Assembly (NCBI GenBank): GCA_002928535.1
Contig: PERG01000010.1
Location: 1 to 64,000 of the forward strand
Length of the DNA stretch: 64,000 nt
Direction of reading: 5' to 3'
Source: Methylotenera sp.
Lineage (GTDB): Bacteria; Pseudomonadota; Gammaproteobacteria; Burkholderiales; Methylophilaceae
The first letter of the stretch is position 1; each line of letters opens with the position of its first letter. Of this stretch, positions 14,925-26,534 are shown piece by piece. The notes below the pieces were generated by a model that made no database searches, was not told the origin of the DNA, and saw nothing but the letters and a program-made list of their open reading frames with translations. The translations under genes and the position numbers were made by a program.

Positions 14925-16202
<1,278 letters not shown>

Positions 16203-17540
16203 TTATTCTTTCGCTTTATTCTCTGGTTTTTTGCTTTTTAATGCCGCCTGATCCAACTCTTTGAGGCGTTTTAATTTTTCGCTAATTTTACCTTCTAAGC
16301 CGCGCGGTGTGGGCATATAAAATTGCTGTGCTGGCATATCATCCGGAAAATATTGCTCACCTGCAGCATAAGCGTCTTCTTCATTATGCGCATAACGATA
16401 GTCTTTACCGTAGTTTAAGGATTTCATAAGCTTAGTAGGCGCATTGCGTAAATGCAAAGGTACAGGCCGCGATTTATCATTATTGACAAATGATTTACCA
16501 AGATTGTAAGCATTGTAAGAAGCATTACTTTTAGGGGCGACGGCCAAGTAAAGCACAGCATTGGAAAGCGCCAGCTCCCCTTCCGGCGAGCCTAGGCGCT
16601 CATAAATCTGGCAGGCTTCCAGTGCCATGGTTTGTGCACGTGGATCAGCTAGGCCTATATCTTCAATCGCCATGCGGACAATACGGCGGCCCATATACAG
16701 CGGGTCTGCACCGCCATCTAACATGCGTAGAAACCAATATAAAGCTGCGTCCGGATTGGAGCCACGAACCGATTTATGCAATGCTGAAATCTGGTCATAA
16801 AAAGCTTCGCCACCTTTATCGAAGCGACGCATCTTACTGGACATGGTGGTCTGTAAAAAAGCGTCATCAATATGGGTGACTTTGGCATTTTGTGCAGCAT
16901 TAAATAGGCTTTCTGCAAAATTCAGTAGACGTCTTGCATCGCCATCCGCATAGGCCAGCACTTGCTCACGAACTTCATCGGTAAGCGTTACATGACTCGC
17001 TACCAAGGCATGAGCGCGATCCAACAGCAAATTCAACTCGGACTCTGATAATGCATTCAGCACAAATACCTGTGCACGGCTTAACAAAGCACTATTCACT
17101 TCAAAAGAAGGATTTTCCGTTGTTGCGCCAATAAAAGTAATCAGGCCGCTTTCCACAAATGGCAAAAAAGCATCCTGCTGGCCTTTGTTGAAACGATGCA
17201 CTTCATCAACAAACAAGATGGTTTTACGGCCATGCTGCTGTAAAGTCAGCTCTGCGCGCTCGACTGCTTCTCGAATATCTTTGATGCCAGACAATACTGC
17301 AGAAATTGGAATGAATTCCGCATCTGCAGTATTCGCGATCAGGCGCGCCAAAGTGGTTTTCCCAACACCCGGCGGGCCCCATAGAATCATGGAAGGTAAT
17401 TTCCCGGATTGAAAGGCCAACCTTAACGGTTTATTTTCGCCTAATAAATGTGACTGCCCTACAACCTCATCTAAAGTCTTGGGACGCAGTCTTTCCGCAA
17501 GCGGGGCTTCGGGCATTTGCGTTTCAAATAAGCTATTCAA
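16203..17540 (-). CDS. rarA: replication-associated recombination protein RarA (MgsA)
   Basis: RarA is an AAA+ ATPase of the clamp-loader clade that acts at stalled replication forks and interacts with SSB. It has 445 aa. Walker A is GPPGVGKTTLA (about 55-65), Walker B LFVDEVHRFNK, sensor 1 GATTENPSFEVNSALLSRA, and the C-terminal MgsA tetramerisation domain ends near YMPTPRGLEGKI. It follows the GT41 gene by a 5-bp gap on the same strand. In E. coli and many relatives lolA precedes it; here four extra genes lie between lolA and rarA. Confidence 0.97.
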   Translation of the reverse strand: MNSLFETQMPEAPLAERLRPKTLDEVVGQSHLLGENKPLRLAFQSGKLPSMILWGPPGVGKTTLARLIANTADAEFIPISAVLSGIKDIREAVERAELTLQQHGRKTILFVDEVHRFNKGQQDAFLPFVESGLITFIGATTENPSFEVNSALLSRAQVFVLNALSESELNLLLDRAHALVASHVTLTDEVREQVLAYADGDARRLLNFAESLFNAAQNAKVTHIDDAFLQTTMSSKMRRFDKGGEAFYDQISALHKSVRGSNPDAALYWFLRMLDGGADPLYMGRRIVRMAIEDIGLADPRAQTMALEACQIYERLGSPEGELALSNAVLYLAVAPKSNASYNAYNLGKSFVNNDKSRPVPLHLRNAPTKLMKSLNYGKDYRYAHNEEDAYAAGEQYFPDDMPAQQFYMPTPRGLEGKISEKLKRLKELDQAALKSKKPENKAKE

Positions 17541-17545
17541 AATAT

Positions 17546-19771
17546 CTATATCGCTTCTACGACTTTATCGGTTTCAATTACCTGCATATTAACAGGTGGT
17601 AAACCATCACAATAGCGCTGCCACATCATTTTATAAGCACGCTCTAAGTTGCGAGTGGTACGTGCTGTATCAAACAATGGCGCCGTATAGCGTTTAGCTT
17701 TAAGCTTTTCACGCATGGCCTGCCTTGCTTCAGTATTTGTTGCATAATAAATTGACAAGTCCTCATACTCATCAAAAGTATTCGTAATGAGTTCAGGCAT
17801 CTCAAGTGCATTAAGCAATGACGCAGCTAAGCGCGAAGAAATTACCTCACCCGCGCATGTAATTACAGGTAAGCCCTGCCATAGTGCGTCCGCAGCCGTA
17901 GTATGTGCATTATGCCAATACGTATCTAAGAACAAGTCAGCCAATTGGTAACGGGCCAAATGCTCCTCATGTGCCACAAATGGTGCAAAGATTAAACGTT
18001 CTGGATCAATTTGTTGCTCCTGCGCGGCTTCTTTTAATCTAGCTTCAACTTCATTAGGTCCAGAAATCAACCACAGGACACTATTGGGTACAGCTTTTAA
18101 TATGCGCATCCAACAGCTGAAAATTTGTGGCTCAATTTTATAGTTAGTATTGAAACAGCAAAAAACAACGGCTTTTTCTGGCAACTGATAGTCTTTTCTA
18201 GACATGGTGATAGGTAAGTTATTGGTCTGATTATCGTATGGATTATAGGCGTGTGGCATAAACACCAAATGCTCAGCCCAATGCTGGGGTTGATGTGCAA
18301 TAACGGAGTCCACAATCGCATAGTCAATATATTCAGCGCCAGATGTACCTGGAAAGCCTAAATAAGTCACTAGAATAGGTGCCGGACGCATCGCCATTAC
18401 TTTAGGCCGCCCCATTGTGGTGAACCCTGTCATATCCACCAAAATATCGATTTCATCTTTATAAATGCACTGAGCTAATTGTGAGTCGCTTAGCTCAGAA
18501 ACATTATTAAACACATCACAGCCAGTTGCTATACTTTCACGGATGTCGTCTTTTACATCCGAATTAAATAACGAGTATCCATAAACTACAAAAGCATCTT
18601 TATCATGCAGCCCATAAATCTGCCGTGACAAAAGGCCTACAGGATGAATCCTGAAGTCAGCCGATAAATATCCGATTTTTATTTTTTTTTGATTATCAGG
18701 CTTAAAATTAAAAGGCGGCACACCTTCTAACCACGCAATTTCCTGTACCCAATCTGCCATATTTTGGCTTAACTTAAGTCTAACCTCACCATCAAGTGCT
18801 AGGGATATCACTTGAAAACCAAACTCAAGATTATTTACTACTTGATCAATAGAGTCTGGCTTTAACACTGCTTTTTGCCATTCTGCAATATAGTCATTTC
18901 TGTATTTCCAAAAACATTTGGTCTGCGCTTGATACATCGCATCAAGATACAGTGTTCTTGGGCTTAAACTTACTTCTACATTCGGATCTAAATTTGCAAT
19001 TGATGGCAATATATTTTCAATGACTTTTGGATCAAGGATTTGCGCTTCTGCCAAACAGTGATGGGCGGCATCAAACTGTCTTAAACAACTTAATATTAGG
19101 CCTTTTTTAAAAAGTAAATTGGCATGCCTAGGTTGCTTAGCTAGAGCAGTTTCGCAATAGGTTAATGCCTCTTCATAGTGAAATGAACCTAGTAAAGCAT
19201 CTGCGAGATTAAATACGAGTCCGATATGTTCAGGGTGTCTGTGATGTGCAGCACGACAATGTTCTAAACCTTCTGTTTTTTTACCAAGACTCGCTAATAA
19301 CGCGCCACGATTAAGCAATGCTGTTATATTTTTAGGGTTAAATTTCAACGCAATATCATAATAAGTCAGCGCTTCTTCAGGTTTTTTAAGTTTCTCTAAA
19401 ATTGCCCCCATATTGGCATTAACAATTGCATCTTGTGGTGCGATTTCCCAAGCTTTCAAAAGTTGATTGTACGCATCTTCAGGGCGGTTTAATTGATCTA
19501 AACATGACGCTATTGCCTGCATCACATGAATATTTTGTGGATTTAACTCTAGAACTTGATTAAATAATTCTAGAGCGTTTTGTACTTTACCCTGAAACTG
19601 CAAAGCAACACCCAGGTAAAAGTTCGGCTCGAATAGATTTGTATTAGTCACAGAGATGAGCCAAGCACAAAGTTTCTCTGCTTCTGCGTACTGGGCAGTT
19701 TGTAAAAATTGCAGTATTCTTGAGATGGTTTCGCTAGAATTGATTTCTGTTGTATTTTTTTGATTCATCAC
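17546..19771 (-). CDS. TPR-containing GT41-type glycosyltransferase (OGT/SPINDLY-like)
   Basis: The protein has 741 aa. Residues about 10-270 are TPR repeats of roughly 34 residues (for example ALEYFNQVLELNP-like units). After a linker, residues about 360-720 form the GT-B catalytic domain of family GT41. The N-half motif is IGYLSADFRIHPVG with the conserved His, then VDMTGFTTMGRP and YLGFPGTSG; the C-half has LDTYWHNAHTTAADALWQG. Members are cytoplasmic and transfer GlcNAc, glucose or fucose to Ser/Thr or Asn of proteins; HMW1C-type members glycosylate surface adhesins before export. It lies 5 bp upstream of rarA but is not part of the usual ftsK-serS block. The neighbouring secreted FecR protein is a candidate substrate; this is inference. 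Confidence 0.88.
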   Translation of the reverse strand: MMNQKNTTEINSSETISRILQFLQTAQYAEAEKLCAWLISVTNTNLFEPNFYLGVALQFQGKVQNALELFNQVLELNPQNIHVMQAIASCLDQLNRPEDAYNQLLKAWEIAPQDAIVNANMGAILEKLKKPEEALTYYDIALKFNPKNITALLNRGALLASLGKKTEGLEHCRAAHHRHPEHIGLVFNLADALLGSFHYEEALTYCETALAKQPRHANLLFKKGLILSCLRQFDAAHHCLAEAQILDPKVIENILPSIANLDPNVEVSLSPRTLYLDAMYQAQTKCFWKYRNDYIAEWQKAVLKPDSIDQVVNNLEFGFQVISLALDGEVRLKLSQNMADWVQEIAWLEGVPPFNFKPDNQKKIKIGYLSADFRIHPVGLLSRQIYGLHDKDAFVVYGYSLFNSDVKDDIRESIATGCDVFNNVSELSDSQLAQCIYKDEIDILVDMTGFTTMGRPKVMAMRPAPILVTYLGFPGTSGAEYIDYAIVDSVIAHQPQHWAEHLVFMPHAYNPYDNQTNNLPITMSRKDYQLPEKAVVFCCFNTNYKIEPQIFSCWMRILKAVPNSVLWLISGPNEVEARLKEAAQEQQIDPERLIFAPFVAHEEHLARYQLADLFLDTYWHNAHTTAADALWQGLPVITCAGEVISSRLAASLLNALEMPELITNTFDEYEDLSIYYATNTEARQAMREKLKAKRYTAPLFDTARTTRNLERAYKMMWQRYCDGLPPVNMQVIETDKVVEAI

Positions 19772-19801
19772 AGGTTAAGTTTTGGATGAGGGTCATTATC
19801 A

Positions 19802-20752
19802 GTGTTAAAAGAAGTCCACATTATTGCACCATTCATACTCGCTAATGGTGGTGACTGGCATGCGATTGACTTATATCTTCAGTATAGCAAAACCCATCAA
19901 GTAACACTTTGGTCGCATCAGCCAGCGCATCCTGACTTAAAATCTAAGTACCCTATTCAAGAAATCAAGCCGTACAGTGGTCAAGTCCCGAACTCTGGTA
20001 CTCTGCTCGTATCTGGCGCACGTACTGAAATTGGTCACTGGTATAACCATGTCAATTTCGATAAAATAATACTCATACATAATCTGCTATCACCCAGCGC
20101 ATTATATAAAGCACTGCATCGCTTAACGATACAAGGTAGAAGAAAAGTCGAAGTGATATATGTATCAGACTTAACTAAAAGATTTGCAGGATTGACTGGT
20201 GAAGTCGTGCATCACATTCCACCTATTGAACGCTTTGAACCAAAAATTAAAACTTCGCCTAATCACACCACACCATTTACTATTGGCCGCATCAGCAGTG
20301 ACTCTTTAGCAAAACATCATCATAGTGATATCCAGATTTATCGCACCTTACTTGATTTAGGCATGCAGGTGCGCATTATTGGAGGAACCTGTTTATCGCC
20401 GTGGTTAAATAGCCACAGTAATTTAAGCCTATTACCTGCAGTTCCACAAAGTGAAGTTGCGGAGGCTTACAGCACATTAGATTGCTTTTATTACAGAGTA
20501 CCTAGCGTAATTAAAGAAGCATATGGACTAGCGGTGATTGAAGCAATGTTATCGGGCTTACCTGTAGTGTGTCATCGAGAAGGAGGTTATGCTGAAGTCA
20601 TACAGCAAGGGGTAAATGGATTCTTATTTGATCGTGAAGATGAAGCGATTGAAATAATTAATCATCTAAAAAACAATGCCAATCTGCGCAAAGAGATTGG
20701 CATGAATGCACGTCAAGTTATTAATAAATATTTGGTTAATTTAAAGATATAA
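19802..20752 (+). CDS. GT4-like glycosyltransferase
   Basis: A GT-B glycosyltransferase of 316 aa with a Rossmann-like start (EVHIIAPFILANGGDWHAID) and a C-terminal donor site EAYGLAVIEAMLSGLPVVCH, carrying the spaced Glu pair and GG-AEVI loop typical of family GT4. The acceptor is unknown. Start is GTG at 19802, only 30 bp from the divergent GT41 start, leaving almost no room for two separate promoters. Its stop abuts the FecR gene stop from the other strand with no gap. It may work with the GT41 enzyme in elongating a protein-linked glycan; that is inferred from adjacency only. Confidence 0.82.
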   Translation: MLKEVHIIAPFILANGGDWHAIDLYLQYSKTHQVTLWSHQPAHPDLKSKYPIQEIKPYSGQVPNSGTLLVSGARTEIGHWYNHVNFDKIILIHNLLSPSALYKALHRLTIQGRRKVEVIYVSDLTKRFAGLTGEVVHHIPPIERFEPKIKTSPNHTTPFTIGRISSDSLAKHHHSDIQIYRTLLDLGMQVRIIGGTCLSPWLNSHSNLSLLPAVPQSEVAEAYSTLDCFYYRVPSVIKEAYGLAVIEAMLSGLPVVCHREGGYAEVIQQGVNGFLFDREDEAIEIINHLKNNANLRKEIGMNARQVINKYLVNLKI

Positions 20753-21991
20753 CTAACTCGGTGGGCCTGGTGGTGCGGGCGGCGGATTTGCAATAAACCC
20801 AGCAGTGCCTTCAATTTGGCCTGCTGTTGTACTAAAGAAACCATTGTCAAGAAAATCCCCTGGGTTTGTTTCTTTAATAATATATCCCACACTTGCTTTT
20901 TCCGCCTGATTGCCTGAGAAAAAGCCAATGACATTTAAAGTACAAGCGTTGTAACATACGCCAGTCATACTACTATTGGTACCACTCATTGCTAATGAAC
21001 CATTAGAGGCAAGGCCACCAGAGATAGAAAAAACATTTGATCTGGATATCTCAAAACCAGCGCTAGTAGGATTGGGCCGAGATGAATCCACTCCAATTGA
21101 ACCTGAAATCGTGTACCCACTAAAACTAGCAGTGAAATAGCTGCTATCGTTAAGTTTGCTGGTCCAGCCACCTCCCTTTCCAACGCTCGCTACAGTTGTA
21201 TCTAATTTATACTCACCTTCAGCATTGATAGCATTTAAATTCGTTATAACGCTGGAAATACCACAATCTGCAGCAAGACATGCCATCCCAGTGTCTGAGT
21301 ATTGTTCGCTAACTCTAAACACATCATTATTATCGTTTTCTGCTTGCTGCTCTTGCTCACCTTTTTCTGGTTGACCACCTTCCGGTCCTTTTGCACCTAA
21401 GGTCATTTCTTCATCGCTATAGGCTGGCGCTTTACCCGGCTCTACATCGGCACTTTGTCCCGAAAATAGAATAATGTCGCCCTGCTCATTAAAGATATAA
21501 ATCGAGCCCTGGCCTACATGCGCTTTTAATTTTTGCTGGAATTCAGCTAAATAATAGGTACCACGGATCCCAATTGTGGCAACTGGAGTACCCAAGCGAT
21601 AGGCTGGCCGATTTTCACGGCCGACAAACCCAGTTACTGCACGTAAGCCACCGCGTAATAATTTAAAGAAGCCTTTTTCTGAGCCATCTTGCTTACCATT
21701 GAAGTTGTACTCTTCAACTTTAAATTCCGTATTGGGCTGGAATGAAAAATAACCGCCATCAGTAAACCGGACTTGGGCACGTCCATCACCTGTCAATATT
21801 GTGTCACCTTGGTTAACTTCCATGCCCTTGGTTAGCACCTTCGAACTACCATCCACACCCTGTAAAGCAGCTCCGCCCGACGCGAATTCTACTTTACCAG
21901 CGGCAGCGTATGCACCCGCTGGAAAGGCTGCAGAGATCATCGCCATGAGGATCGCTTGGCGGTTTAAATAAATATAATGGGCTTTATCCAT
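20753..21991 (-). CDS. secreted FecR-domain protein with C-terminal beta-rich (TbpB-like?) domain
   Basis: The protein has 412 aa. The signal peptide ends near AFPAGAYAAAG (about 22-32). A FecR domain follows (about 50-165: LTKGMEVNQGDTILTGDGRA, then TPVATIGIRGTYY). Next come a Glu/Gln/Asn-rich linker (GGQPEKGEQEQQAENDNND) and a Gly/Ser-rich C-terminal region with GFFSGNQAEKASVGYI, resembling the FFGP-AEE-GG handle of TbpB-like barrels carried by Slam/type XI secretion cargo. The tail is Pro-rich. Start 21991 was chosen over 22036 because AAGGA lies 7 nt before it and it begins the signal peptide. It is encoded 50 bp downstream of the TPR/beta-barrel gene, probably in the same operon. It is not a typical FecR anti-sigma regulator, having no TM anchor or adjacent ECF sigma gene. 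Confidence 0.75.
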   Translation of the reverse strand: MDKAHYIYLNRQAILMAMISAAFPAGAYAAAGKVEFASGGAALQGVDGSSKVLTKGMEVNQGDTILTGDGRAQVRFTDGGYFSFQPNTEFKVEEYNFNGKQDGSEKGFFKLLRGGLRAVTGFVGRENRPAYRLGTPVATIGIRGTYYLAEFQQKLKAHVGQGSIYIFNEQGDIILFSGQSADVEPGKAPAYSDEEMTLGAKGPEGGQPEKGEQEQQAENDNNDVFRVSEQYSDTGMACLAADCGISSVITNLNAINAEGEYKLDTTVASVGKGGGWTSKLNDSSYFTASFSGYTISGSIGVDSSRPNPTSAGFEISRSNVFSISGGLASNGSLAMSGTNSSMTGVCYNACTLNVIGFFSGNQAEKASVGYIIKETNPGDFLDNGFFSTTAGQIEGTAGFIANPPPAPPGPPS

Positions 21992-22041
21992 GATAATTCC
22001 TTTTAACAACCTAGAGTTAAGTTGAACCGCATGCAAAAAAC

Positions 22042-23400
22042 TTACCAGTTAAAATCTTTGTGTATATTTAGAGAGACTACCCAGCGATCAAACTCATAAA
22101 GATCATTATTAGAGTGGCTATCGATATAACTAATCTGGGGTTTGATCGTGAAATTGTACCCAGGTAAATAACGTAGGCCGATATTTAAATCCAGTTGATT
22201 ATCTTCACGGGCAATTAAAAATGTAGGGTCTTGTTCTTGATAATCCCGGTACTCGTAACTGATACCGGCAAAAGCGACTAATTTGTAATTGATTGCCAAT
22301 TGACCACCGGCGCGTACTCCAAAAATATCATGGCTTAAAAAATCGAAATCATTGTCATCGGTATCTTCTTTGCCCGCATATGCACTTAAATAAGTGACCT
22401 TAGCTTTATCACCGCCAAACGCATGGCCCCAGGCGGTACCGACGATATAGCGTTTTGCGTCCCGGACTGAAATGTCTGGATAATCCAGTTTTGATAATTG
22501 TGTAAACACACTTGTCTGGTTCTGGTCATCTAAATTGCGCTGCCATTGGCCACTAACCCCCATGGCCTCACGAAAGGTATTGCTATTAATGGAGAAGGAA
22601 CCGCCTTGTAAAGCGATGGTGTAATTGTCAATATTGTGTTTAATATTCAGCCCTAGGGAGTAATCCAATGAGGATGGATCAAACTGCTCATCTGCCCAAT
22701 TCATTTTGGTTGTACCCGCTAGTGAGCCGAAGGCTGAGACATTTTTACTAATGGGCGCCCGCACCGATATGCCGCCTGCTGCACTCACGAAATTACTGGA
22801 CTGTTCTAGTGATGCAGCATTCAGTTGAAATGGAATCAGGGGGAAATTAGGCGCTATGGAAACGTTAATCGTGTTTGTGGTGGTTGCGCTATTGATATTA
22901 CTATCGTGACCAATTCCGAAATCCAGGTATGCAGCAAACGCCGTTTTCTGTCCGGTAGCTTTATCAATCGCCTGCATATTATTTTCGATAAGCTTGGTAA
23001 TTTCTGCATTAGGATTTTGGCTTAATACATTGTTAAATTCAGACTTTGCATTTTCCGCTTCACCAGCTTTATAGTAGCCTTTGGCAATCATCGCGCGGGC
23101 CTCGATATTATTAGGTTCTTGCGCCAGCACCCGTTCCAAAGCAAAAATACCGCGGGAATTCTCCCCGCCTTCAATGGCTGCCACACCTAACAACATATCG
23201 TATTCAACATTACCGGAACGGTCAGACTCTAATGGAAGCAGCAATTCATAAGCCGCTTTATGATTGCCGGCTTTGATAAAAGCGCGTGCTTCATTTAATA
23301 CCGTATCATCAGCTGCGAATGCCATGCTAGGCAAGATAACTAAGCACGTCATGATAAAAGACAAAGCAAGCAGCCAATGTCTCAGATTGGATTTACTCAT
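22042..23400 (-). CDS. TPR plus outer-membrane beta-barrel protein, Slam-like (DUF560)
   Basis: The protein has 452 aa: signal peptide (about 1-29, ending PSMAFAADD), periplasmic TPR region (about 30-160, with AKGYYKAGEAENAKSEFNNV), then alternating amphipathic strands to the C-terminus, ending in the aromatic SLNIHKDFNW. This order, TPR then a barrel of roughly 14 strands, is that of Slam surface-lipoprotein assembly modulators (type XI secretion). The start at 23400 is supported by GGGGGA about 6 nt upstream; an ATG at 23436 would precede the signal peptide with polar residues. The barrel reading is from strand pattern, not a domain search. The FecR gene downstream is the natural cargo candidate. 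Confidence 0.75.
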   Translation of the reverse strand: MSKSNLRHWLLALSFIMTCLVILPSMAFAADDTVLNEARAFIKAGNHKAAYELLLPLESDRSGNVEYDMLLGVAAIEGGENSRGIFALERVLAQEPNNIEARAMIAKGYYKAGEAENAKSEFNNVLSQNPNAEITKLIENNMQAIDKATGQKTAFAAYLDFGIGHDSNINSATTTNTINVSIAPNFPLIPFQLNAASLEQSSNFVSAAGGISVRAPISKNVSAFGSLAGTTKMNWADEQFDPSSLDYSLGLNIKHNIDNYTIALQGGSFSINSNTFREAMGVSGQWQRNLDDQNQTSVFTQLSKLDYPDISVRDAKRYIVGTAWGHAFGGDKAKVTYLSAYAGKEDTDDNDFDFLSHDIFGVRAGGQLAINYKLVAFAGISYEYRDYQEQDPTFLIAREDNQLDLNIGLRYLPGYNFTIKPQISYIDSHSNNDLYEFDRWVVSLNIHKDFNW

Positions 23401-23528
23401 TCTTTTCCCCCTTATTTCCCCAATTTCATGATACACAATTTAAGGGAAGAATAGCCAATTCACATAGAGCTATTCGATATATAACAAGAACAAAAACAAA
23501 AATTGTGTTGTCATTACAACAGTTTACG

Positions 23529-23555
23529 TAAAAAAAGGCGCTTACGCGCCTTTTC
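23529..23555 (-). terminator. rho-independent terminator after lolA
   Basis: The stem AAAAGGCGC/GCGCCTTTT with loop TTAC spans 23533-23554; on the minus strand it is followed by a T-rich run (from the A7 at 23529-23536). It lies just after the lolA stop and separates ftsK-lolA from the accessory genes. The run of T on both sides makes it possibly bidirectional. Confidence 0.82.
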
Positions 23556-23571
23556 ATTAGGGGATGGAATG

Positions 23572-24189
23572 TTATTCTTTTACGACATCTACGCCTTTTG
23601 GCGTTTTAAATAAAAACGTTTTGTTATCCAGGCTAGGATTCTGTTCAATTTTGCTGAAACTTATTTTAGTCTGCAAACCAAAGCTATCTATTAATTCCAT
23701 TTCCTTCAATTCGCCTGCTTTAAAGCCTAGTAAAATACTTTCAAAACCAGAATCTTCGATTTTAGGTTCGGCCTTTACCCAATCGATATCATTATTTTGA
23801 TTCGCGTTGGTAAATTTGAAGCTCTTATCCAAGGTGTCATCGCCAGCTAATAGAGCTGCTGGGCTTGAACCCAGCGCTTTGCTTAGAGCACGCACAGTTA
23901 CTTGGGCTAACTCGGTGTCGTATAACCACACTTGCTTACCATCGCTCACAATCTGCTGTTCGTAGGGCTTGTTGTAATCCCAGCGGAATTTATTAGGGCG
24001 TTTCAACTGCATTTCACCTTGCACTTCTTGCACTTTCCGCCCCTGTTTATCAGTCACAATCTGAGAGAAATCAGCGCGCATTGCATGGGTTTGGTTATAA
24101 AAATCACGCAGGCTTTTAACGCCATCTGCAAAAGCGCCACAAGAGAAAGTAGCAAGACTTACAACAACGAACAATTTAATTTTAAGCAT
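23572..24189 (-). CDS. lolA: outer-membrane lipoprotein carrier protein LolA
   Basis: LolA is the periplasmic chaperone that takes lipoproteins from LolCDE and hands them to LolB. It has 205 aa, with an N-terminal signal peptide ending near CGAFA-DG. The mature protein starts with the usual SLRDFYNQTHAMRADFSQIV region, and the WDYNKPYEQQIVSDGKQVW segment is typical. It is 35 bp downstream of ftsK and transcribed with it, the conserved ftsK-lolA order. Unlike in E. coli, rarA does not follow directly; a terminator and four accessory genes do. Confidence 0.96.
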   Translation of the reverse strand: MLKIKLFVVVSLATFSCGAFADGVKSLRDFYNQTHAMRADFSQIVTDKQGRKVQEVQGEMQLKRPNKFRWDYNKPYEQQIVSDGKQVWLYDTELAQVTVRALSKALGSSPAALLAGDDTLDKSFKFTNANQNNDIDWVKAEPKIEDSGFESILLGFKAGELKEMELIDSFGLQTKISFSKIEQNPSLDNKTFLFKTPKGVDVVKE

Positions 24190-24224: not shown

Positions 24225-26534
24225 CTAAACTTCGTGATGTGGTGCGAGTACTTCGCGGTTACCGTTACTTTGCATAGCAGAAACTAAACCAGCACGTTCC
24301 ATATCTTCAATTAACCGCGCTGCACGGTTGTAACCGATGCGTAGCTGTCTTTGCACAGATGAAATACTCGCACGACGTGTTTTAAGCACAATTGCGACGG
24401 CCTCATCATAGAGCGGATCACTATCACTACCCGACTCACCACTCGGCACGCCAAAGTCTGCACCGCCCTCTTCCGCCTCATTGCTTAGGATGCCTTCAAT
24501 ATAGTTAGGTTCACCCTGTGCTTTAAGGTAATTGACGACTTTATGCACTTCCTGATCCGACACAAACGCCCCATGAATGCGCTGCGGGTAACCGGTACCC
24601 GGCGGCATGTACAACATATCGCCTTGACCTAACAACGCTTCAGCGCCCATTTGGTCTAATATAGTTCTGGAATCAATCTTGCTGGACACCTGGAATGCAA
24701 TACGCGTAGGAATATTGGCTTTAATCAGCCCAGTAATCACATCCACCGATGGCCGTTGCGTGGCAAGCACCAGGTGAATACCTGAGGCACGCGCTTTTTG
24801 TGCAAGACGCGCGATGAGTTCTTCCACTTTCTTGCCCACTACCATCATTAAGTCGGCCAGTTCATCGATCACCACCACAATCATCGGCATTTCCATGAGT
24901 GGTTCTGGCTCGTCTGGCGTTAAGCTGAACGGATGCGGGATTTTTTTACCTTCTTTTTCGGCTTCACGGATTTTCTGGTTATAACCGGCTAGGTTTCGCA
25001 CACCTAATGTGGACATTAATTTGTAGCGTCGCTCCATCTCTGCCACGCACCAGTTAAGCGCATTCGCCGCTTGGCGCATATCGGTTACCACGGGTGCCAG
25101 CAAATGCGGAATCCCCTCATATACGGAAAGCTCAAGCATTTTGGGGTCGATCAAAATCATACGGACCTGGCTAGCATCGGCTTTGTAAAGCAAACTCAAA
25201 ATCAAAGCGTTAATCGCCACAGACTTACCGGAACCAGTGGTACCTGCAACCAACACGTGTGGCATTTTTGCCAGATCAGCCACAGCCGGTTTACCGGCAA
25301 TGTCTTTACCCAGGGAAATCGCTAATGGTGAATGCACATCAGCATAAGCCTGGCTGCCCATGATTTCAGATAGATAAACAATTTGGCGTTTAGGGTTAGG
25401 AATCTCCAAGCCCATGCAGGTTTTGCCAGGAATGGTTTCGACCACCCTAACACTGACTACTGAAAGTGCACGTGCAAGGTCTTTGACTAAATTGGTGACT
25501 TGGCTACCTTTTACACCGGCGGAAGGCTCCAACTCATAACGCGTAATGACAGGGCCAGGCAGTGCGGTAAGCACTTTAACTTCTATGCCGAAATCATTCA
25601 GCTTGCGTTCAATCAGCCGTGAAGTGAAATCTAGTGTCTCAGCAGATTGAAACTCTACTGTACCTGCCGGTTCATCTAGCAAATGAATAGGCGGCAATAG
25701 CGAATCGGGGTGAGTTTCAAACAACGGCGCCTGTTTTTCTTTTAGCACACGCGCACTTTGCGGGATTTCGATCACTGGTGTTTCAATTTGCACGGGCTCA
25801 CGTTTTTCAGTCCGTTTACGCTCGCTCTGCACGTATTCGGTACGTTCCATTTCAACGACCTTGCCAGCTTTTCTATCTTGCCAGTCATGCCATTTAAGTA
25901 TTGCCCAGTCATAGGTAGCGATCAACCAGGTACCCAACTTTTCAGTAATCAAAATCCAAGACCAGCCTGTAAAAAGACTAAAGCCAACAACGAACATGGC
26001 AAGCAATACCATGGTAGAGCCTGTGAAGCCAAACATGCCACGTAACAAGTTGTCAAAAGCTGTCCCCAGCATACCGCCAGGCGCTAATGGTAATGAGGCT
26101 GGCAAGCTAACCAAATGCCCAGCTTCTAAGGCGCAAGATGCCACTAGCAACAAGGCAAAACCAATGAAATTAAACAATAGAAATGGCTTGTCGCTGGCAT
26201 TCACCACTTCAAGTTTTAAGTAAACCAACCACATGGCATAGAACGCCAATACTGCCCACCACCATGCGGAGAATCCGAATAAATATAACAACATATCGGA
26301 TAACCATGCCCCTACGGTGCCACCACTATTTTGCACAACAGCATCGTCTGGCGCCATGTGCGACCACGAGGAATCTTCACGGTTATAGGTGAACAAAATG
26401 ACGGTAATAAATGAGCCGACAAGTACTAGGCCAAGCCACCAAGCTTCTTTGATAAGCGTTGAACCAATGGTAGGTGTCTTGGGAGTTTCTGCCGCGCGGC
26501 GCGCATTCACGGGTGTAGTTTTTTTGAAAAACAA
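24225..26534 (-). CDS. ftsK: DNA translocase FtsK
   Basis: FtsK couples chromosome dimer resolution and terminus segregation to septation. It has 769 aa, a short-linker form. The N-terminus has four membrane segments (about 30-190), followed by a short charged linker (about 215-290) and the RecA-like motor with Walker [16 protein letters not shown] and Walker [15 protein letters not shown]. The C-terminal gamma winged helix ([20 protein letters not shown] onward) would read KOPS and activate XerD. It heads the ftsK-lolA unit. Confidence 0.97.

Follow-up and report, generated by a model that had tools for sequence, protein, structure and literature searches.

A 64,000-nucleotide stretch of the genome of Methylotenera sp. 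(Methylophilaceae; assembly GCA_002928535.1, contig PERG01000010.1, positions 1 to 64,000; hereafter "the window") carries a set of four genes between lolA and rarA that encode a TPR/β-barrel protein of the type XI secretion system (T11SS, Slam) family, a FecR-domain protein as its putative cargo, and two glycosyltransferases of the families GT4 and GT41. The set recurs at different chromosomal sites in other genomes, and the GT41s linked to it cluster in a phylogenetic tree. The explanation that we favor, and regard as rather probable, is a Slam-type exporter–cargo pair with a dedicated cytoplasmic O-glycosyltransferase as an optional third partner, with both export and glycosylation as predicted activities. 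The first-pass annotation of the window had proposed a surface protein that is exported by the barrel and glycosylated by both transferases before export, an interpretation that is partly supported by the results below.

A Slam-type exporter and its candidate cargo

The gap between lolA and rarA comprises 6,031 bp (17541–23571 in window coordinates), in agreement with the separation by about 6 kb and the four named genes that had been annotated previously, and all four genes exceed the curated Pfam cut-offs. Along the minus strand, which also carries ftsK, lolA, rarA, and serS, the TPR/β-barrel gene is followed by the FecR-domain gene, an inverted GT4 gene, and the GT41 gene (Table 1).

The barrel protein (453 residues, analyzed from position 23403) is assigned to the Slam/T11SS family on the basis of its sequence and predicted structure. 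It matches the SlipAM domain (PF04575, formerly DUF560) with 38.5–38.6 bits (cut-off 22), as anticipated by its first designation as Slam-like and the proposed search against DUF560/Slam profiles, and has an additional TPR_19 match. SlipAM was found in all 38 barrels scanned (E up to 0.001), a hand-picked set consisting of the window barrel and 37 of the 79 related barrels described below. An AlphaFold2 model (mean pLDDT 93.3) comprises TPR helices followed by 14 long and two short strands, which resembles the TPRs and predicted 14-stranded barrel of Slam described in the accessible portion of PMC5449769. POTRA_2 and ShlB, the domains of two-partner secretion of the HMW1B type, are absent from the Pfam matches of the window barrel (E up to 0.1) and from the scan of the 38 barrels. 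Judging by its family and predicted fold, the protein would carry its cognate cargo across the outer membrane.

The best solved Foldseek matches of the model are BcsC, FadL, and PelBC, all of them TPR or large outer-membrane barrels, which would also agree with a polysaccharide export porin (PgaA/BcsC/PelB type) whose polymer is built by the glycosyltransferases. This alternative appears very unlikely because Pfam favors SlipAM, the NCBIfam model of BcsC yielded 19.9 bits (cut-off 858) and PgaA is not among the matches listed, the four-gene set contains no polysaccharide synthase, and the partner protein models with the fold of T11SS cargo. The absence of a Slam structure from the Foldseek matches listed for the barrel says little either way.

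By its C-terminal fold, the FecR-domain protein is most likely a cargo of the T11SS, as the first-pass annotation had suspected. The C-terminal domain models as an eight-stranded barrel, the fold of T11SS cargo, and 48 of the 50 structural matches listed are T11SS cargo (fHbp, TbpB, LbpB, HpuA, hemophilins, NHBA) when the Foldseek match list is re-examined with VIA-align. The FecR domain (PF04773; 33.7 bits, cut-off 24) starts at residue 63, about 33 residues past the likely cleavage site of a hydrophobic, signal-like N-terminus that has an A-x-A site and no lipobox (by inspection and simple rules); a lipobox-like string is present in 2 of 61 cargo proteins. There is neither a second Pfam domain above the cut-off nor another segment of comparable hydropathy.

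Because PF04773 is known mainly from FecR anti-sigma factors, the protein might be a periplasmic signaling protein rather than cargo. However, its FecR domain follows the signal-like segment without a cytoplasmic anti-sigma domain, so that the architecture of FecR anti-sigma factors (a cytoplasmic N-terminal domain and a transmembrane helix before FecR) is lacking. Together with the predicted C-terminal cargo barrel and the absence of a sigma-factor gene between lolA and rarA (neighbor families elsewhere are annotated in part), this makes a signaling function very unlikely.

Recurrence of the gene set in other genomes

The first sample consisted of 101 genomes, i.e., the window's own and 100 relatives. 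The barrel is present in 27 of them (E up to 0.001), 20 of which, by visual count, have a strong match at E up to 1e-30. A FecR-domain gene adjoins the barrel gene in 18 of these 20 genomes (exceptions are G098 and G035 (contig end)), and a GT41 gene is also adjoining in six (G000, G004, G052, G083, G070, and G073). Relatives of the GT4 (E up to 1e-10) occur in three of the 101 genomes, including that of the window; in G004, the gene has the same place and orientation.

A second sample was obtained by scanning named bacterial genomes with a barrel alignment, which yielded 79 loci from the best 80 of 315 relatives; these represent near relatives of the window barrel and not all T11SS. Many of the loci share one chromosomal site by descent and are therefore not independent events. 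The cargo gene follows the barrel gene in 67 of the 79 loci, and in 63 of the 72 with at least 1.2 kb downstream. In a clustering of neighbors, GT41 is the commonest family downstream of the cargo (34/79 loci, always on the barrel strand), ahead of dihydrofolate reductase (13), PaaK-like adenylation proteins (11, some upstream), RarA (10), and SerS (9); the GT4 family is present in nine loci, invariably on the opposite strand. The labels were then corrected to 33 of 79 loci with GT41, leaving out L120 (67 bits, matched in the TPRs only and on the opposite strand) and including L086 and L130 (just past the 6.5-kb limit). With these labels, a GT41 gene is located downstream in 30 of the 58 loci with at least 4.5 kb of downstream sequence and upstream of the barrel (within 6.5 kb) in none of the 58 with at least 4.5 kb of upstream sequence. 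The gap between cargo and GT41 is only 10–37 bp in 12 of the 31 loci measured.

The full order of barrel, cargo, inverted GT4, and GT41 is present in L074, L087, L099, L112, L114, L126, and L136, and also in L115, where the contig ends within GT41, and in L130, where three PaaK-like genes separate cargo from GT4. The records are labeled Azonexaceae, Dechloromonas, Rhodocyclaceae, Propionivibrio, and Betaproteobacteria bins, among others. Because the set recurs, the objection that its genes fail to co-occur in other genomes, which had been put forward in the first-pass annotation as a potential refutation, does not apply. The glycosyltransferases are optional, with GT41 in about half of the loci and GT4 in fewer. 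Export can therefore not generally depend on the glycosyltransferases, and since about half of the loci lack GT41, the sugar should be dispensable for export as such. A chance neighborhood of the genes was rejected in view of their recurrence across samples and sites.

A second FecR-domain protein of 240–363 aa is encoded directly upstream of the barrel in 12 loci (L104, L111, L114, L115, L118, L121, L126, L128, L129, L132, L134, and L139), mainly in Rhodocyclaceae-like records. L097 and L106 stem from metagenome bins labeled Bordetella parapertussis, a label that may be wrong.

A putatively dedicated but optional glycosyltransferase

The GT41 of the window matches PF13844 with 329 bits (cut-off 25), contains TPRs, and is, by its sequence, an OGT-like enzyme with a predicted cytoplasmic location. 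Its closest solved relatives are OGTs (up to 325 bits; XcOGT, 230 bits), and the alignment with OGT shows conservation of the H-P, Y-K, and H-T-T positions, which we take to be the catalytic positions of OGT. OGT is a cytoplasmic Ser/Thr O-transferase that acts on proteins, and the same activity and location are therefore expected of the GT41. The alternative assignment to HMW1C-like N-glycosyltransferases (NGTs) was rejected because the NGT equivalog (NF049992) yielded 38 bits versus a cut-off of 1000 and the enzyme has TPRs instead of an AAD domain; of the original designation as OGT/HMW1C-like, only the first half stands. The GT4 matches PF00534 (64.1 bits, cut-off 26.4). No signal peptide was seen in either glycosyltransferase by sequence and hydropathy.

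A maximum-likelihood tree was computed from 56 GT41 domains, 35 linked to the barrel and 21 unlinked ones chosen away from barrel matches; linked GT41s shorter than 580 aa were omitted, as were the copy from G070, whose locus is identical to L105, and L120 (300-residue filter). The linked label changes only twice on this tree, compared to 17.2 changes in shuffles, and none of 500 shuffles was as low. The GT41 of the window falls among linked enzymes (starred sets of 2 and 5 rows), whereas the second GT41 of the same genome groups with unlinked ones (starred, 9 rows). Many deep forks are open, and no bootstrap tree has a single change, so a single origin of the linked GT41s is compatible with the tree but not demonstrated. 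The GT41 of L101 forms a very long branch. With a Mantel r of 0.46 (p 0.0001; 33 loci), GT41 distances correlate with barrel distances.

The C-terminal half of the cargo contains more Ser and Thr in loci with GT41 (23.2%, 31 loci) than in those without (19.9%, 21 loci; Mann–Whitney p 0.009), also in a regression corrected for barrel distance (p 0.001), with the earlier labels (p 0.009 plain, 0.003 distance-corrected), and without L101. A following cargo of 330–700 aa is present in 61 of the 67 loci, and 52 of these entered the test; the rest have short flanks and no GT41. Neither the FecR part of the cargo nor the exporter barrel differs in Ser/Thr content by presence of GT41, and the number of N-x-S/T sequons per C-terminal half is the same (3.58 with and 3.57 without GT41), which fits O- rather than N-linkage; these sequon and control tests and the distance test used the uncorrected labels (32/79). 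N-glycosylation of the cargo was rejected on the same grounds. The Ser/Thr enrichment could thus be a trace of Ser/Thr O-glycosylation.

It is conceivable, if unlikely, that barrel and FecR-domain protein form a T11SS pair, while GT41 and GT4 act on a different substrate (a polysaccharide or another envelope protein) and are in the same locus without a functional link. The absence of GT41 from about half of the loci and the patchy distribution of GT4 would agree with this scenario, as would base composition: the GC content of GT4 and GT41 (0.39–0.40) is lower than that of barrel and cargo (0.43–0.45) and of rarA, serS, and ftsK (0.46–0.48), which suggests separate acquisition; that of lolA is 0.41. 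By contrast, the position of GT41 downstream of the cargo and never upstream of the barrel (0/58) at different chromosomal sites, the clustering of the linked GT41s, the Ser/Thr enrichment restricted to the C-terminal half of the cargo and missing from the two controls, and the action of the closest solved relatives on proteins all argue for the cargo as the substrate.

Chromosomal location

Of the 61 genomes in the family of the window, 54 have lolA and rarA on one contig, with at most 350 bp between them in 41 of these, which makes the insertion patchy. Other genomes have only barrel and cargo in this slot (G030, G038, and G060), barrel, cargo, and GT41 (G052), barrel and cargo with PaaK-like and methyltransferase-like genes (G056), or all four genes of the window, spread over two contigs (G004). 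Among the full-order loci, only L074 has the set between lolA and rarA. Elsewhere, it is often located between dcd/ornithine-lysine-arginine decarboxylase genes and dihydrofolate reductase/thymidylate synthase genes (e.g., L093, L102, and L131); the decarboxylase gene (family named from one representative) is beside the set in 18 of the 79 loci. The set therefore occupies at least two unrelated sites. The ftsK-lolA-rarA-serS setting emphasized in the first-pass annotation is present in the window, but it is a trait of the Methylophilaceae and not a part of the system; the position between lolA and rarA was rejected as an essential feature because other families have the set elsewhere. The site between decarboxylase and dihydrofolate reductase genes may explain why T11SS have been reported to co-occur with one-carbon and nucleotide metabolism.

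The slot between lolA and rarA appears to be a preferred site of outer-membrane export systems. L171 (G042) and L172 (G058) have a small FecR-domain protein and a two-partner pair (a ShlB/POTRA_2 protein and a TPS-domain protein) in this position, in L172 together with a GT28-like glycosyltransferase, and L174 (G015), where the rarA side alone is visible, has a small FecR-domain protein and a YDG-repeat protein. Only a short FecR-domain gene (about 226–236 aa) was found between lolA and rarA in G002, G037, G049, and G041 (the slot itself was read for G037 and G041); that of G041 is broken by a stop.

In the window, a terminator-like hairpin with a T run directly follows lolA, which suggests a transcript of barrel and cargo separate from that of lolA, probably starting with the barrel gene. 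The GT41 gene ends 5 bp before the called start of rarA.

Table 1. Features of the lolA–rarA region (window coordinates)
Feature	Position	Strand	Basis or remark
ftsK	24225–26534	-	Pfam, 254 bits
lolA	23572–24189	-	Pfam, 179 bits
Terminator-like hairpin with T run, directly after lolA	23530–23554	-	Read straight from the sequence
T11SS/Slam-family outer-membrane protein: signal peptide, TPR helices, 14-stranded β-barrel (predicted)	22042–23403 as analyzed; ORF opens at 23436	-	SlipAM, AlphaFold2 model
Cargo candidate: signal-like start, FecR domain, linker, C-terminal eight-stranded TbpB-type barrel (predicted)	20753–21991 as analyzed (ATG at 21991); ORF 20753–22036	-	412 aa
GT4-type glycosyltransferase, between cargo and GT41	19802–20752	+	PF00534; position and strand kept in other loci
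OGT-like GT41: TPRs and GT41 domain, predicted cytoplasmic	17546–19771	-	PF13844, OGT alignment, tree, hydropathy
rarA	16203–17540	-	Pfam MgsA_C, 214 bits
serS	14925–16202	-	Pfam, 151.8 bits

Proposed mechanism

For the exporter–cargo pair with an optional glycosyltransferase, we infer the substrate, the sugar modification, the surface location, and the order of steps as follows. The OGT-like GT41, together with GT4 if present, would modify Ser/Thr residues in the C-terminal half of the cargo in the cytoplasm; lacking a signal peptide, GT41 should act before export. A possible role of GT4, either in extending the first sugar or in replacing it, is the weakest step of the scheme. The cargo would pass the inner membrane via Sec, and its C-terminal eight-stranded barrel would be recognized by the TPR/14-strand outer-membrane protein and transferred to the cell surface, as suggested by the family and the predicted fold of this protein.

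A more specific version, which we consider doubtful, adds that the C-terminal barrel, decorated by GT41 in the cytoplasm, would lead through the exporter, while the FecR domain, with the fold of the LapA/MpAFP retention module, would stay in the periplasm as a plug, resulting in a lipid-free anchoring of the sugar-coated barrel displayed at the surface. If true, protein glycosylation of the OGT type and anchoring by a retention module would be joined in one secretion variant. The cargo did not reach the cut-off of the NCBIfam model for the LapA-type retention module (NF033682).

Several observations weigh against the pairing of a T11SS cargo with a dedicated glycosyltransferase. Foldseek alone gave only two matches of the cargo model at E up to 0.001; both are to TbpB, and their rmsd is large and their whole-model TM-scores are low (about 0.2). 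The Pfam domain TbpB_B_D was not matched by the window cargo and by only 4 of 51 cargo proteins scanned (the window's and 50 of 61, with 11 omitted by hand) at E up to 1 (best, 0.0019); according to the accessible portion of PMC5449769, known T11SS cargo share a fold without sequence similarity. Four barrels between lolA and rarA (L081, L083, L084, and L088) have no recognizable adjacent cargo, which may have been lost, moved, or escaped recognition. Cargo distances follow barrel distances more closely (r 0.81) than GT41 distances do, which would fit a freer exchange of GT41; shared ancestry alone yields some correlation, with species descent not separated out. The Ser/Thr content of the window cargo (20.3%) is close to the mean of loci without GT41, the effect is mostly due to Thr (p 0.005; Ser alone, 0.13), and the test was exploratory, one of several features tried, with p values uncorrected for that. 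Lastly, PaaK-like genes occur in 11 of the 79 loci, with or without GT41, and together with methyltransferase-like genes point to another modification as a possible shared theme.

The PaaK/AMP-binding-like genes are located in L080, L085, L086, L089, L101, L109, L112, L119, L128, L130, and L131, sometimes in two or three copies, and fall just under the Pfam cut-off in two tested loci. The methyltransferase-like genes were found near the cargo in the two tested loci L080 and L131.

Comparison with known systems

In the accessible portion of PMC12282271, T11SS clusters 1 and 3 are analyzed and about ten cargo architectures are described for cluster 1; for the majority of T11SS outer-membrane proteins, no cargo is known or predicted, the seven verified ones are confined to a single animal-associated cluster, and further cargo is suggested to be possibly glycosylated. 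The terms "FecR" and "O-GlcNAc" are absent from the main text of that paper, and "FecR" does not occur in the main texts of PMC8406197, PMC9100927, and PMC5449769. A search of the open-licence literature recovered no paper on DUF560 with FecR and, by title, none on type XI/11 secretion or Slam with O-GlcNAc transferase, which agrees with the earlier remark that no description of the combination was known. We therefore regard the cargo architecture and the optional, dedicated glycosyltransferase as the new elements of an otherwise known system, the T11SS.

The set provides a predicted betaproteobacterial T11SS cargo that differs in its N-terminal domain, along with a candidate for a dedicated, OGT-family glycosyltransferase of T11SS cargo. 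The questions of missing cargo and of cargo glycosylation thereby become directly testable, e.g., with the isolates Methylovorus sp. MM2 (L079) and Azospira oryzae (L113). The set suggests that the bacteria that carry it may sugar-coat a protein before its display at the surface, using an enzyme related to a protein-glycosylating enzyme of animals.

The set shares with known T11SS/Slam systems, whose cargo includes TbpB, fHbp, LbpB, HpuA, and hemophilin, a SlipAM/DUF560 protein with TPRs and 14 strands that is encoded beside a cargo with a C-terminal eight-stranded barrel, and soluble cargo of the signal-peptidase-I type is known for hemophilins (PMC8406197, PMC5449769, PMC12282271, each as far as accessible). 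It differs in the FecR domain, which is not among the N-terminal cargo types in the accessible portion of PMC12282271, in the betaproteobacterial origin of the records, and in the presence of an OGT-like GT41, sometimes with GT4, in the cluster. The TonB and heme genes typical of T11SS cluster 1 were not recognized among the neighbor families annotated, which are only a part of the total. A suspected glycosylation of T11SS cargo is shared with the Pls-like cargo of Haemophilus parahaemolyticus, which shows aberrant gel mobility; this cargo has Pls repeats instead of a FecR domain, and the accessible portion of PMC12282271 mentions no linked protein glycosyltransferase. OGT and XcOGT likewise combine TPRs with a GT41 domain whose conserved positions align with those of the GT41 described here, but the latter is linked to a cargo that is predicted to be exported.

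An analogy in gene content is the HMW1A/HMW1B/HMW1C system of Haemophilus influenzae, where cargo, outer-membrane translocator, and cytoplasmic GT41 are likewise encoded together, and where HMW1C is described as a cytoplasmic "third partner" on whose activity export is unlikely to depend (PMC3983070, as far as accessible). The components are different: the translocator is a SlipAM protein and not a ShlB/POTRA protein (type Vb), the GT41 is a TPR-containing, OGT-like enzyme and not an AAD-domain NGT, with N-sequons that do not track its presence, and the cargo is a FecR-domain protein with a predicted barrel and not a TPS adhesin. The set thus appears to be a functional parallel to HMW1A/B/C that is built from other parts.

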